Shown here piece by piece: positions 29,966-40,515 of a DNA stretch of 64,000 bases (positions within the stretch are counted from its first letter, which is position 1; each line of letters starts with the position of its first letter). Source of the DNA: Candidatus Bathyarchaeota archaeon. Its GTDB lineage: Archaea; Thermoproteota; Bathyarchaeia; Bathyarchaeales; Bathyarchaeaceae. Under the pieces are notes generated by a model, which was given only the letters and a program-made list of their open reading frames with translations, was not told where the DNA came from and searched no databases. A program made the position numbers and the translations under genes. The stretch lies in NCBI GenBank assembly GCA_004376295.1, contig SOJZ01000039.1, positions 1 through 64,000 of the forward strand. The letters are read 5' to 3'.

Positions 29966-31063
29966 ATGACGAAAAAACCCAAAATTGCCACTATCTTGCT
30001 TATCTTTTTTATATTACTTACTCTGGTGTCGCTCCTATTCCTATACTATACTCACGCAATCCCTCTTGAAAAGACATCGGTGACCTCACTATACACTTAT
30101 GGATATCAGGGAACCTACAACTACATCGCTGCCCTTAAACCAAACACAATATATGACAACAAAACAACACTGAAACCCGGCGAAGGGCCCATTTACAGAA
30201 GAATAACAGATCATATTGACGTAAACTTCACATATGTTTTCGAAGGTAACCTACCGGCGAACTTCACGATCAAATACAGCGTTCATGAATACGTAGAAAC
30301 AGCTCATTGGAGAAAACAAATCAGTGAACTCCCTCAAAAGAACATAGAAACCACGGGAACTAGGTCAGACCTCTCTATCAACAATATTACGACCATAGAC
30401 CCCCCCTCAATTCAAGAATTTGTCAACGAGATCAATGAAGAAACTGGAATTCTTGCGAGTCAATACAGCTTAAACATTACAATAAAAATGTACATCGAAG
30501 CAAAAACCAGCGTAGGCACAGTTAACGAATCCTTCATGCCCACATTGAAAGCTGAATTCCAAAGCAGCGCAAGTGAAGGAGAAATTATATCCATAAGCGG
30601 TTTAGAACAAGGCAAAACAGGTGAAATCACGGAAACAGAAAAAATATACCAGCTAGGGGTACAACAGAACAGAAACATATCCTACGGTGTGTCCGTAGCA
30701 TCGTTCGCTGGTTTAGTCATAAGTGCATGGTTTTTCATAAGAACAAGACCTCCCAAGCCATCGAAACCCGAAAAACTGCTCGAAGATATCATTGGGCCTT
30801 ACGAGGAAATAATCGCGGAAGCAGCTCAAGAGGTAAGTGAAAAAGATCAGCTTTCTAAACCTGGTACTACATTAGCCATAAAGACATTAGAAGATCTTGT
30901 CAAAATCGCTGACACCTTGGAAAGGCCCATTCTCCACAGCTACAAACCACCAGAAACCCACATCTTCCGCATAATTGACGATGCTGCACAATATGAATTC
31001 ACTACGACCATTTCAACCTTAGCAAAAAGAAAAGCTATCATGGAAGAAGAGGAAAACGAATGA
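29966..31063 (+). CDS. DUF5305-family membrane protein, second locus
   Basis: A 365-residue protein with an N-terminal helix (IATILLIFFILLTLVSLLFLYY) and an extracellular beta-rich domain containing GTYNYIAALKPNTIYDNKTTL, the same signature as YNYVASIKPSMLYENRT in the first locus. A second helix follows (about 240-256), then a cytosolic tail IKTLEDLVKIADTLERPILH ending near RIIDDAAQYEF. It overlaps the CPBP-like gene by 4 bases. DUF5305 function is unknown; constant pairing with signal peptidase suggests a role in handling or anchoring the secreted subunits. Confidence 0.8.
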   Translation: MTKKPKIATILLIFFILLTLVSLLFLYYTHAIPLEKTSVTSLYTYGYQGTYNYIAALKPNTIYDNKTTLKPGEGPIYRRITDHIDVNFTYVFEGNLPANFTIKYSVHEYVETAHWRKQISELPQKNIETTGTRSDLSINNITTIDPPSIQEFVNEINEETGILASQYSLNITIKMYIEAKTSVGTVNESFMPTLKAEFQSSASEGEIISISGLEQGKTGEITETEKIYQLGVQQNRNISYGVSVASFAGLVISAWFFIRTRPPKPSKPEKLLEDIIGPYEEIIAEAAQEVSEKDQLSKPGTTLAIKTLEDLVKIADTLERPILHSYKPPETHIFRIIDDAAQYEFTTTISTLAKRKAIMEEEENE

Positions 31064-32389: not shown

Positions 32390-32448
32390 CTCCCCCTCTA
32401 TAGATTAGTCACACACGCGCACATCCACAGAGAAACGATAACAATAGA

Positions 32449-32600
32449 AACCCTAGAAGACCTAGCAAAAACATCAGAAAACCTAGTCAAACCAATCTTC
32501 CACACAAAAGGATCCACCACCCGCGAAACAACATAGACATTCTACATACTAGACAACAACACAAAATACCAATACACAACAGAAGAACCACCTCAGAAGC
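32449..32600 (+). pseudogene. DUF5305 3'-end remnant 1
   Basis: Translation gives IETLEDLAKTSENLVKPIFH, then TTRETT, a TAG, and TFYILDNNTKYQYTTEEP. This is the C-terminal tail of DUF5305 (compare IKTLEDLVKIADTLERPILH in the intact protein). The upstream part of the gene is missing. The TAG at the same place recurs in remnant 2, so those two copies share an already broken ancestor. Confidence 0.75.
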
Positions 32601-32645
32601 AAAGTATTTAAGTGTATTTCTCTACTTTTCTCTTGGTGTAGAGAA

Positions 32646-33751: not shown

Positions 33752-34043
33752 ACGACCCCCCTAGGTAGGGGATCCTGCGGTTAAGGAGTACGTGCGCGTT
33801 TGCAACATCACATGAAAACTCGCGTCCTCCAATATAGCCGCCATCTTTTCCCATCTTTCTGCATCTATTCCTATCTTTTCCTATCTTTCTATATCTTTTT
33901 GTATCTTTTCCCATCTATTCCTATCGTGGGATAAACCGTTTTCAAGCTTATTTTCAAAAAACCAACGAAAAACAAGCTTTGTGAAGAACAAAAAAATTTT
34001 AGGGGGGGTCTATAAGAGAGAGAGACACACAAATAACATAACA
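33752..34043 (+). repeat. Dispersed element with 10-bp periodic repeat, copy 1
   Basis: This shares most of its ~290 bases with 39680-40042. Parts in order: a CCCCCTAGGTAGGGG palindrome (33755-33769); GGTTAAGGAG; ACGTGCGCGTTTGCA; CATCACATGA; eight units of the 10-mer (C)TATCTTTTC and variants in perfect 10-base register (33841-33925) closing in ATCGTGGGATAAACCG; then TTTTCAAGCTT and AAGCTTTGTGAAGAAC in a loose inverted arrangement; an A/T run; TTTTAGGGGGGG; and AGAGAGAGA. No gene is inside. The layout (iteron-like array beside an A/T-rich stretch) resembles a replication or partition site, but this is inference. Confidence 0.75.
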
Positions 34044-34064
34044 AAAAACCCATAAAAGACATAA

Positions 34065-34282
34065 TTGCACCATACAAAGAGATCATAGCAGAAACAACCG
34101 AAAAACCACCAGAAACAACACAAACAATAACCATGGAAACCCTAGAAGACCTAACAAAAATAGCAGAAAACCTAGTTAAGCCGATTCTACACAAAAAAGG
34201 ACCCAAAACCAACGGACAAACAACATAGACATTCTACATACTAGACAACAACACAAAATACCAATACAAAACAAAAGCATAA
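34065..34282 (+). pseudogene. DUF5305 3'-end remnant 2
   Basis: The largest remnant: PIKDIIAPYKEIIAETTEKP, then METLEDLTKIAENLVKPILH, then GQTT, a TAG, and TFYILDNNTKYQYKTKA with a TAA at the end. It aligns with the last ~100 residues of the intact DUF5305 protein at 29966 (DIIGPYEEIIAEAAQEV, then TLEDLVKIADTLERPILH). It lies directly after the 10-bp-periodic element. Confidence 0.75.
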
Positions 34283-34285
34283 CAA

Positions 34286-34538
34286 ACCAAACAAAGAAAG
34301 CCTACTTAAATCCCAGTTTTTCCCAAAACAGATAAACCTTCGTTTGAGCAAGAAAGCTAAGCCTTTTCAAAGCTTTCGCCAAATCTAAAAGACAATTTAT
34401 TATCAATGAAACAATACGCTTGGTGCTTGACGCCTTCTAGCATAACTTTAAACTCGTAAAGGCTAACACGCTTAAATGAGAATACATGACATAAACCTAA
34501 AATAACAACCCAGCCCATTATATCCGCAGGGTTCAAGA
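34286..34538. other. Non-coding or decayed stretch
   Basis: On the minus strand there is a broken frame (FKRVSLYEFKVMLEGVKHQA, then after a frame change ALKRLSFLAQTKVYLFWEKL to a TAG near 34302) that reads like the end of a lost gene. I cannot name it. Confidence 0.35.
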
Positions 34539-35157: not shown

Positions 35158-35681
35158 AATAGCGGATTAACCGAATTTCCTTGGAAGTCGTTTTATAAAC
35201 CGTCTTTACATCTTTTTCCACCGAAACAAGACGCAAGTATTGATTAAGCTACTCAAAACTCAGGTTCGTCTCTAACACGCCATTATAAAATATTTCGTAG
35301 CATCAGGTTGTCAGCCAAACCCGAAACACTTGAAGACTTGCGAAAATAGCGGAAACCCCTTGCAAGACCAATACTACACACAACAAAAGACAAAACACAC
35401 ACATTCTACATACTAGGCAACAACACAAAATACCAATACAAAACCACAGCCCCAGCCAAAGCATAACCATCAGCATCAGGCCCTACGACCCAGGAAAAAA
35501 GATCAGAATGATATCAACCTCTCCACCATACTCGACAACTGTAGGCAGAAGACAGATACCCATAAATCACGGTATCCCCCTCAAAAACCGAAAAACCTTA
35601 CAACACCAGAATACACTTTTATGCGTATCAACAACCTTTCAGCCATTTGAAGTTTCAAAGTGAAGAATCTTAAATATTCGA
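35158..35681. repeat. Repeat-rich decayed stretch with DUF5305 remnant 3
   Basis: No intact gene. CTCTAACACGCCATT (35269-35283) recurs at 39247-39261. GCATCAGGTTGTCAGCCAAA (35298-35317), extending through CCCGAAACA, recurs at 36427-36446. From 35329 a DUF5305 tail remnant reads LEDL, then THTFYILGNNTKYQYKTTAP and AKA with a TAA at 35464; it keeps the His where remnants 1 and 2 have the stop. The remainder (35465-35681) shows nothing I can name apart from the promoter region of the next gene. Confidence 0.6.
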
Positions 35682-38159: not shown

Positions 38160-38262
38160 TGCATACACGCATTAAACCGATTCTCCACAAAAAAAGGACC
38201 TAAAACAAAACACACATTCTATATACTAGACAACAACACAAAATACCAATACAAAACGTAAA
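38160..38262 (+). pseudogene. DUF5305 3'-end remnant 4
   Basis: A short remnant: PILHKK, then after a frame change KGPKTKHTFYILDNNTKYQY and KT with a TAA at 38262. The last ~45 bases are nearly identical to remnants 1-3. Confidence 0.7.
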
Positions 38263-38346
38263 CACAAATCGGAACCCAACAGGGCGAAAGAAAAGGACAT
38301 ACAGAACTAAAGCTGAAACAATATACAAGCTCAGGGATAATTTTCA

Positions 38347-39134: not shown

Positions 39135-39679
39135 AAAAATATTCACCTCTTTTTCATATCAACACTTTTTGGTTCCGGGTCCGAAGAAAAATTTTGTTTC
39201 TTCAACATACCTCTTCATTGTTTACCACTCTAACTTCCATCGGATTCTCTAACACGCCATTTCATATAATGTTTTGCGTATGAAGTTGCCGAAGCATGAG
39301 ACGTACGCACAATCTACAGACCATCCCAAAACCCATAGAACACGTAATCAGGACTCAAAACAACACACACAAAATACGAATACACAGCCACTACCCCCGA
39401 ACAAAACCTAACAAACCCAGAGAAACGTGCCCACAACCTATACATAATTTTCATCACACTATCCCATCAACCACATCAGAAGTAGGAACAATCCCCGCAA
39501 CATCCAAGTTTTTTTTCTCCATTTCATTAATACGATTCTCCATCGAACCCCACTCTTGAAAAACCAGTATGACAAACCCCTAGGCATAAAAATAATATTC
39601 CTTGAAAAACAAACACGACATGCGGAACAAGGCCTCACCGATCTCCCTCAAACGGACCAATATCACCATTCAAAACCGA
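39135..39679. repeat. Decayed intergenic stretch with DUF5305 remnant 5
   Basis: No intact gene. CTCTAACACGCCATT (39247-39261) and ATGTTTTGC (39268-39276) are copies of the repeats at 35.27 and 36.42 kb. From about 39361 the frame THTKYEYTATTPEQN is a weak fifth copy of the DUF5305 C-terminus (compare NTKYQYKTTAP in remnant 3). The rest is C/A-rich sequence in which I recognise nothing. Confidence 0.5.
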
Positions 39680-40042
39680 CTACTCCCCTAGATAGGGAAA
39701 ACTGCTGTTAAGGAGCACGTGCGCGTTTGCACCATCACATGAACACCCGAATTCTCCAATACAGCCGCCGTCGATTCCCACCTTCTTGCATCTTTTCCCA
39801 TCTTTTAGTATCTTTTCCTATCTTTTTCCACCTTTTCCTATCTTTTCGTATCTTTTCCCATCTATTCCTATCGTGGGATAAACCGTTTTCAAGCTTAATT
39901 TCAAAAAACAAACCAAAAACAAGCTTTGTGAAGAACAAAAAATTTTAGGGGGGGGTCTAGAGAGAGACATATGAAACTATAAAAAAATTAGGGGGGGCTA
40001 TAGGGGGGTCTAAAGAGAGAGAAACACGCAGATAACGTAACA
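39680..40042 (+). repeat. Dispersed element with 10-bp periodic repeat, copy 2
   Basis: Second copy of the element at 33752-34043, with the same order of parts: TCCCCTAGATAGGGA; GTTAAGGAG; CACGTGCGCGTTTGCA; CATCACATGA; about ten 10-base units (39771-39870) with consensus TCTTTTCCYA; ATCGTGGGATAAACCG; the two AAGCTT sites; and AAAATTTTAGGGGGGGG. The 3' end differs: the (A)TTAGGGGGGG-TCTA-AGAGAGA unit is repeated, giving an extra ~60 bases. The periodic array has more units than copy 1, so it has expanded or contracted. Confidence 0.75.
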
Positions 40043-40082
40043 AACACAAGCACAAATAGTCGAAACATTCATAAACCTGATC

Positions 40083-40146: not shown

Positions 40147-40515
40147 ATGAAATTTGAAATACCAAAAGAAATAGCAGACGCAACATACGAAGCCCTACAA
40201 ATAGCTGCACAAACAGGCTCCACATGCAAAGGCACAAACGAAACAACCAAAGCAATAGAAAGAGGACAAGCAAAACTAGTAGTCATAGCCGAAGACGTAG
40301 ACCCACCAGAAGTCGTCGCTCATCTCCCCATACTCTGCGACGAACGCAAAATCCCATACGTCTTCGTACCAAACAAAGAAAAACTCGGAACCTCCGCAGG
40401 AATAGACGTACCCGCAGCCTCAGTATGCATAACCGAAGTCGGCGACGCAACAGAATTAGTCAAAGAAATCTCCAGCAAAATTGAAGAATTGAAAAAGAAG
40501 GGCCACAGCGAATGA
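40147..40515 (+). CDS. rpl7ae: Ribosomal protein L7Ae
   Basis: A 122-residue L7Ae protein: [60 protein letters not shown] and [10 protein letters not shown] are all typical. Besides its place in the large subunit, archaeal L7Ae binds kink-turns in C/D and H/ACA guide RNAs and RNase P RNA. It overlaps rps28e by 4 bases. An in-frame stop lies 27 bases upstream, which limits the start. Confidence 0.96.

Follow-up and report, generated by a model that had tools for sequence, protein, structure and literature searches.

A phased 10-bp repeat array dispersed in Bathyarchaeia genomes as the probable gene-less operator of a small self-regulator gene

The window analysed here, that is, the whole stretch of 64,000 nucleotides taken from a contig of a Bathyarchaeia genome, carries two copies of an element built around a run of 10-base units (Table 1), and the question raised by this locus is what such a strictly phased repeat is for and where it came from. 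A first-pass annotation had described eight consecutive 10-mers in exact 10-base register in copy 1, and this was confirmed. The units read, in order, ATCTTTTCCC ATCTTTCTGC ATCTATTCCT ATCTTTTCCT ATCTTTCTAT ATCTTTTTGT ATCTTTTCCC ATCTATTCCT, and Tandem Repeats Finder reported for them both a period of 10 (8.3 copies) and a period of 30 (score 106). When 250 units were counted over 34 copies of the element, base 3 was a C in all 250, bases 1-6 were nearly fixed and bases 8-10 were free to vary; nearly all the copies had from 3 to 11 units, and the only departures from register were two shifts and one array that had decayed. The exact register supports the proposal that the motif is displayed on one face of the DNA, and the array of copy 1 can be regarded as a putative phased operator. 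A coding repeat was rejected, because the KDxxRYxKIx peptide encoded by the minus strand in some copies shifts frame with the number of units and stop codons are present. No Rfam family matched at its gathering score within the window, and no tRNA was found there.

The array had also been proposed as a site of DNA curvature. A dinucleotide wedge model, whose controls behaved as expected, gave bends of 79-114 degrees in most of the AT-rich arrays versus about 30 degrees in shuffled sequences, so that strong bending is predicted for most arrays of this class; for the GC-rich dialect of the sister species (G003) the bend was 52-66 degrees.

Table 1. Positions of the two element copies in the window and of the associated regulator genes.
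Feature	Position	Strand	Remarks
Palindromic hub of copy 1 (CCCCCTAGGTAGGGG), at its left end	33757..33771	.	also solo elsewhere, without the ~245-bp body
5' module type A, copy 1	33772..33842	minus	3' of the array on the minus strand; from module alignment
Array, copy 1	33843-33922	minus	eight 10-mers in exact register; minus-strand unit of the GGGAAAAGAT type
3' module type a, copy 1	33923..34001	minus	promoter-like; few indels, 79-83 bp in 25 copies
TATA-like GGTTTATCCC	33937-33928	minus	inside the 3' module of copy 1
AAGCTT pair	33944 and 33974		30 bp apart, 3' module of copy 1
G-run and tail TCTATAAGAGAGAGAGACACACAAATAACATAACAAA, copy 1	34002..34046	plus	
Copy 2, whole element	39679-40046		ten units
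Hub of copy 2 (CTCCCCTAGATAGGG)	39683..39697	.	
5' module type A, copy 2	39698..39769	minus	
Array, copy 2	39770..39869	minus	ten 10-mers
3' module type a, copy 2	39870..39947	minus	promoter-like
G-run and two tandem tail units, copy 2	39948..40046	plus	upstream of the L7Ae-like gene 40147-40515
Viral regulator ORF	L071 453-746	opposite to the strand presented	~95 aa
Host regulator gene	G000:C4:100638-100895		

On the strand presented, the element was organised as the hub CCCCCTAGGTAGGGG, a 5' module, the array, the motif TATCGTG, a 3' module, a G-run and a tail; read on the minus strand, this order became a promoter-like module followed by the array and by a truncated gene start. The hub had one match in the 64 kb versus 0.03 expected. 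By eye, the CCTTAAC motif in the 5' module of copy 1 appears to resemble the start region of a regulator gene (GCCCTTAACTCAAG in the virus described below), the remainder of which is missing. The 3' module comes in two forms, type a, with the two AAGCTT sites 30 bp apart, and type b. Small indels numbered 18 in 911 bp of the 5' module versus 16 in 2010 bp of the 3' module, where most of them fell in its A-run, to be compared with the two off-register shifts in the arrays. The type a module of the window had a modest similarity (z up to 3.5) to the promoters of regulator genes in other genomes. The flanking parts that had been named for copy 1, namely the hub, the two AAGCTT sites, the A/T run and the G-run, were found to be present. 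The tail (GGGGGGTCTATAAGAGAGAGACACACGCAAATAACGTGACAAAA; window 34002-34046 and 39956-40046) is a separate short repeat that often stands alone upstream of genes, for example at L034:7152-7189, L040:2169-2236 and L058:2597-2637, and it also occurs in G010, G014 and G017, which are genomes without the array element. Elsewhere in the window, between toxin-antitoxin-like genes, repeated fragments of 90-170 bp (32433-32604, 34122-34296, 35380-35468 and 38193-38281) resemble by eye the end of a 365-aa ORF (29966-31063), and this region looks like a decaying duplication zone.

A BLAST search of the source genome (G000, Bathyarchaeia, 1.89 Mb in 44 contigs) with the 292-bp element gave 41 matches, 18 of them of at least about 170 bp, with E-values down to 1e-98; the longer ones, the query itself excepted, were 75-90% identical, and the total came to about 20 copies, so that the two in the window are well beyond what chance would give. 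The sister species G003 had 16 matches, corresponding to about 15 copies, and no match was obtained in G001 or G002, two genomes of the same genus from which the regulator gene was also missing. A single copy in G012, a genome of another genus, was located on a contig (G012:C58, L054) 99.5% identical to G000 over 8 kb, and may be due to a binning error in that MAG. The named contigs bearing the motif belonged to the Bathyarchaeota MAGs CSMAG_2176 and CSMAG_2739 and to one Candidatus Bathyarchaeum MAG. The genome-wide search for further copies that the first-pass annotation had called for was thus positive both in the source genome and in its sister species, and since the layout is kept across the order (see below), the element is not one decayed duplication without conservation in relatives.

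Many copies adjoin housekeeping genes, those elsewhere in the genome lying near Alba, proteasome, rpl22 and RadA genes. In G000 the tail end was directed toward the start of the neighbouring gene in 16 of the 19 loci judged (one-sided p=0.002), and the genes faced in this way included rpl22, psmB, Alba, L7Ae, RadA and malic enzyme. A role as promoter of the downstream host gene was nevertheless rejected: for psmB and others, the probable TATA boxes were outside the element, G001 and G002 keep the promoter region of L7Ae, and G001 that of psmB, without the element, and the bias in tail orientation was absent in gene-less copies of two distant genomes (G074 and G075).

Among the viral contigs scanned for the pattern, one proved to be a true match, a 9.9-kb tailed-virus contig (L071/L160) carrying terminase and tail genes and 99.7% identical to a G026 contig; the other seven viral contigs with the pattern were discarded, as all of them contained unrelated 10-mer repeats. 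Of the link to plasmids or viruses that had been suspected, the viral side is supported by the related array in this one contig. The viral array has 11 units; a promoter-like module of type b, containing a TTTAAATA-like box, precedes it, and the start codon of an ORF of ~95 aa follows directly. On the host side, a broken remnant of the regulator ORF adjoined its array on G000:C41, and a damaged regulator gene was found on G003:C14 with an array ~5 kb distant. Given the viral ORF and these host remnants, the element can be read as the promoter and leader of the regulator gene minus the gene. A second virus, with a terminase 98% identical, diverges right after the CCCCCCGTATAGGG hub and the insert is absent from it. 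Immediately past the terminase gene, the contigs L160 and L161 become unrelated from a CCCCCC(G)TATAGG hub onward, and the hub may be a module-exchange point in viruses too.

The AlphaFold model of the viral protein (pLDDT 84.5) has a barrel fold, and the two halves of the chain are alike. Its best structural match was PhS018 (2glw), a RIFT barrel of Pyrococcus horikoshii (Foldseek E=1.7e-5, TM 0.72), which was also the top hit of VIA-align, with a Z of 12.1 over 84 residues, an rmsd of 2.2 and 23% identity. The AbrB domain TIGR01439 of NCBIfam was reached at E=1.9e-4 with 21.1 bits, below the curated cut-off of 28.3; no Pfam family was obtained at E up to 1, and there was no sequence match to the MraZ models. 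The structural match to the MraZ-promoter complex was far lower (Z 5.0), a value that proves nothing alone. The regulator is predicted from the model to have a PhS018-like (RIFT-barrel, AbrB-related) fold, a likeness which does not imply a function.

The regulator family was searched in 162 genomes of the order with a model built from seven relatives, and the gene was detected in 26 of them, with six copies per genome at most. In 34 non-redundant leaders (positions -90 to -15, virus excluded) the self-match at lag 10 had a mean of 0.432 versus 0.276 in shuffles (z=16.8); at lags 20 and 30 it was 0.402 (z=13.7) and 0.363 (z=8.4), respectively, and no other lag from 5 to 32 was over z=2. Control leaders from L7Ae and psmB homologues had z=1.1 at lag 10. 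Two leaders (G014 and G114) showed no 10-bp signal and it was weak in a few others. Across the family the 10-bp step was kept while the repeated word changed, even among the paralogues of one genome: the words were TTTGACATAA, AAAGTCTTGA, AAAAGTATGG and GCGTTTATCT in the G074 paralogues, of the CAAACGTTGN type in G024 and of the GGAATAGGCT type in the host's own gene. Because the relatives of this DNA-binding-type protein have 10-bp leader arrays in the equivalent position, ahead of their start codons, a protein-assembly site seems to be the best reading of the array, and it is in this form that the earlier suggestion of a protein-filament site survives.

When twelve leaders were searched in ten genomes, 36 matches were found in G074 and 10 in G075. 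Nineteen of the 20 loci read in these two genomes consisted of promoter and array with no regulator ORF; they were intergenic, belonged to several dialects, sometimes formed tandem pairs and had no orientation preference. Therefore, the phenomenon seen in the window is not limited to the source genome. In G074, G071, G075 and G082 several regulator genes contained stop codons and their leader array was still recognisable, as if regulator genes decayed faster than operators.

We propose that the element represents the control region of a small self-regulator gene, duplicated and lacking the gene itself, and that the array is the multi-site operator of that gene, a reading to which we assign a probability of about 0.68. 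Several subunits of the regulator would assemble along one face of the curved array DNA, and this assembly, being just downstream of its own transcription start, would probably block transcription, as in the case of MraZ. The copies in the window would have derived from the regulator gene by an internal deletion; seated in the palindromic hub, they would have been moved from hub to hub by recombination or gene conversion, with no transposase of their own. Near L7Ae they may act as ectopic sites, either regulon sites or decoys, and the copies near Alba, proteasome, rpl22, RadA and other genes may do the same elsewhere in the genome. A wider form of the proposal, in which a family of RIFT-barrel self-regulators uses a private 10-bp word for each paralogue and its operators have escaped and multiplied, either as regulon growth or as a decoy invasion, is put forward tentatively, at somewhat less than even odds.

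Comparison of the sister species is relevant to how the copies spread. Full and solo elements taken together, the exact CCCCCTAGGTAGGGG occurred 12 times in G000 and 13 times in G003, and was found in neither G001 nor G002; hub and tail also occurred without the ~245-bp body. The rpl22, Lrp-type regulator and malic enzyme sites had a full element in G000 and a solo one in G003, and the rRNA-linked site and the site at the DUF2096 gene were tail-only in G000 and full in G003. The element was present in both species at the L7Ae, psmB and Alba loci, but the number of units was not the same, and two of these loci, L7Ae and psmB, differed in module type as well. Because the adjoining coding DNA at the compared loci is ~95% identical between G000 and G003, the turnover of the elements is faster than that of the DNA around them, and it would fit recombination or gene conversion between dispersed hubs. 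No end inverted repeats were seen by eye, the body being bounded by G-runs at the palindromic hub, and the solo and full sites at rpl22 and the Lrp-type gene were compatible with either insertion or deletion. The idea that the M50 protease gene preserves a clean empty site with its target duplication was rejected because the upstream flanks were too divergent, and an IS200/IS605 or REP-associated transposase as the mover was also discarded, PF01797 (Y1 transposase) being absent from G000 and from the same-family genomes searched and present in one of 27 genomes. Several of the breaks in synteny between G000 and G003 are located at elements (L030 versus L045 and L047, L041 versus L049, and L040 versus L050), which points to recombination of one copy with another as a source of chromosome rearrangement. 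The host copies may be decayed and unbound, and unit number and type vary at the same locus between the sister species.

Such behaviour could also be that of a selfish or neutral repeat, a minisatellite inside a MITE-like element whose 10-base step is kept by slippage and which is now unread by any protein. The range of 3 to 11 units, the arrays that differ at orthologous loci, the synteny breaks between the sister species and the gene-less copies of G074 and G075 without orientation preference all agree with this explanation. However, the 10-bp phase was found in leaders of three families of the order whose words are unrelated, a recurrence for which a single ancestral minisatellite is inadequate, and base 3 is invariant throughout the units counted while bases 8-10 vary; we consider a selfish origin unlikely, at about one chance in four.

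Judging from the TATA-like motifs, the array would lie downstream of the start site and inside the leader, and control might then be exerted at the RNA level, with the repeats of the leader RNA (AAAGAUnnnn) bound by a ring-forming, TRAP-like protein that controls translation. Reconstructed RIFT-type barrels do bind both nucleic acids, RNA and DNA, in vitro (PMC11258233), but the 10-base step is close to the helical repeat of DNA and would have no such reason in single-stranded RNA, and MraZ, an AbrB-type relative with 10-bp repeats, acts on DNA (PMC5282649), which makes control through RNA improbable. A segregation or nucleoid-organising site similar to ParB-parS or omega-parS, with an autoregulatory role for the array linked to the gene and a centromere-like role for the dispersed ones, would agree with the contiguous phased arrays, the adjacent gene of DNA-binding type, the dispersed copies and the viral carrier. 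Nevertheless, no ParA-kind ATPase was seen beside the viral regulator gene, the copies are spread beyond one genome region and species of the same genus do not have the system, and a function in segregation appears very improbable. That the repeats are the iterons of an origin of replication, in a plasmid or a virus, is an idea favoured by the direct repeats, the A/T-rich surroundings and the one viral contig, but it has hardly any chance of being correct, given that the ~20 copies are dispersed in the chromosome, many beside housekeeping genes, that instead of a single site beside an initiator gene the viral array is a promoter leader, with a promoter-like module on one side, a small regulator-like gene for a RIFT-barrel-type protein on the other and no replication gene or initiator seen next to it, and that the near-relative virus (98% terminase) is without the array.

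The closest known design appears to be that of bacterial MraZ, a repressor encoded at the head of a division and cell-wall gene cluster, and the Bathyarchaeia regulator may work like it. The word repeated at MraZ sites varies among bacteria, that of E. coli being made of TGGGN repeats. MraZ is a bacterial self-repressor bound as an octamer to its site, (AAAGTGKN3)3 in Mollicutes, with a 10-bp step (PMC5282649, PMC8475190). In both systems a small protein with two similar halves, AbrB-related according to its predicted fold in the Bathyarchaeia case, is associated with direct repeats of 10-bp step in its own promoter or leader, as found here in the 34 leaders. In contrast to MraZ, the Bathyarchaeia protein has no detectable sequence match and a predicted single-barrel RIFT fold nearer PhS018, the arrays are longer (3-11 units), paralogues with different words coexist in one archaeal genome, and gene-less operators are dispersed through the chromosome. 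The structural match to PhS018 extends over nearly the whole regulator; no function for PhS018 was found in the literature covered, and a promoter array is described here for the Bathyarchaeia family only.

Other multicopy or self-regulatory systems share some of these features. MITEs and Correia-type elements are, like the copies described here, short, multicopy, intergenic, gene-less and non-coding, and some of them carry promoters or a site for a bending protein next to genes (PMC10969869); in our case no terminal inverted repeats were seen by eye and no parent transposase was found (a Y1 enzyme was looked for), and the copies seem to stem from a regulator gene together with its operator as the parent unit. 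AvtR of archaeal lipothrixviruses is a viral self-regulator with two DNA-binding halves per chain and several sites, protecting ~100 nt (PMC5569661). It resembles the putative archaeal viral self-regulator proposed here in having two halves and several sites, but AvtR is a ribbon-helix-helix protein acting on imperfect inverted repeats, whereas the present array is strictly direct with a 10-bp step. The direct repeats of the archaeal mobile elements named Borgs are reported to be fast-evolving and of independent origin in many places (PMC9879509); they differ from the single lineage and the conserved position relative to a gene seen in Bathyarchaeia. The literature searches turned up no paper describing either the element or such a regulator in Bathyarchaeia, and there is a chance that the combination of paralogue-specific words and escaped operators is something newer than the known designs.

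If our reading is correct, orphan PhS018-like RIFT barrels, so far treated mainly as relics of early barrel evolution, would be linked to a specific and testable candidate DNA target, and a MraZ-like operator design would be present in Archaea. The dispersed gene-less copies would offer a natural series for the growth of a regulon by copying of an autoregulatory operator, and also for the changing of protein and operator word together while the helical step remains fixed. The paralogues of G074, G071 and G075, which have different words side by side, make this co-change directly testable.
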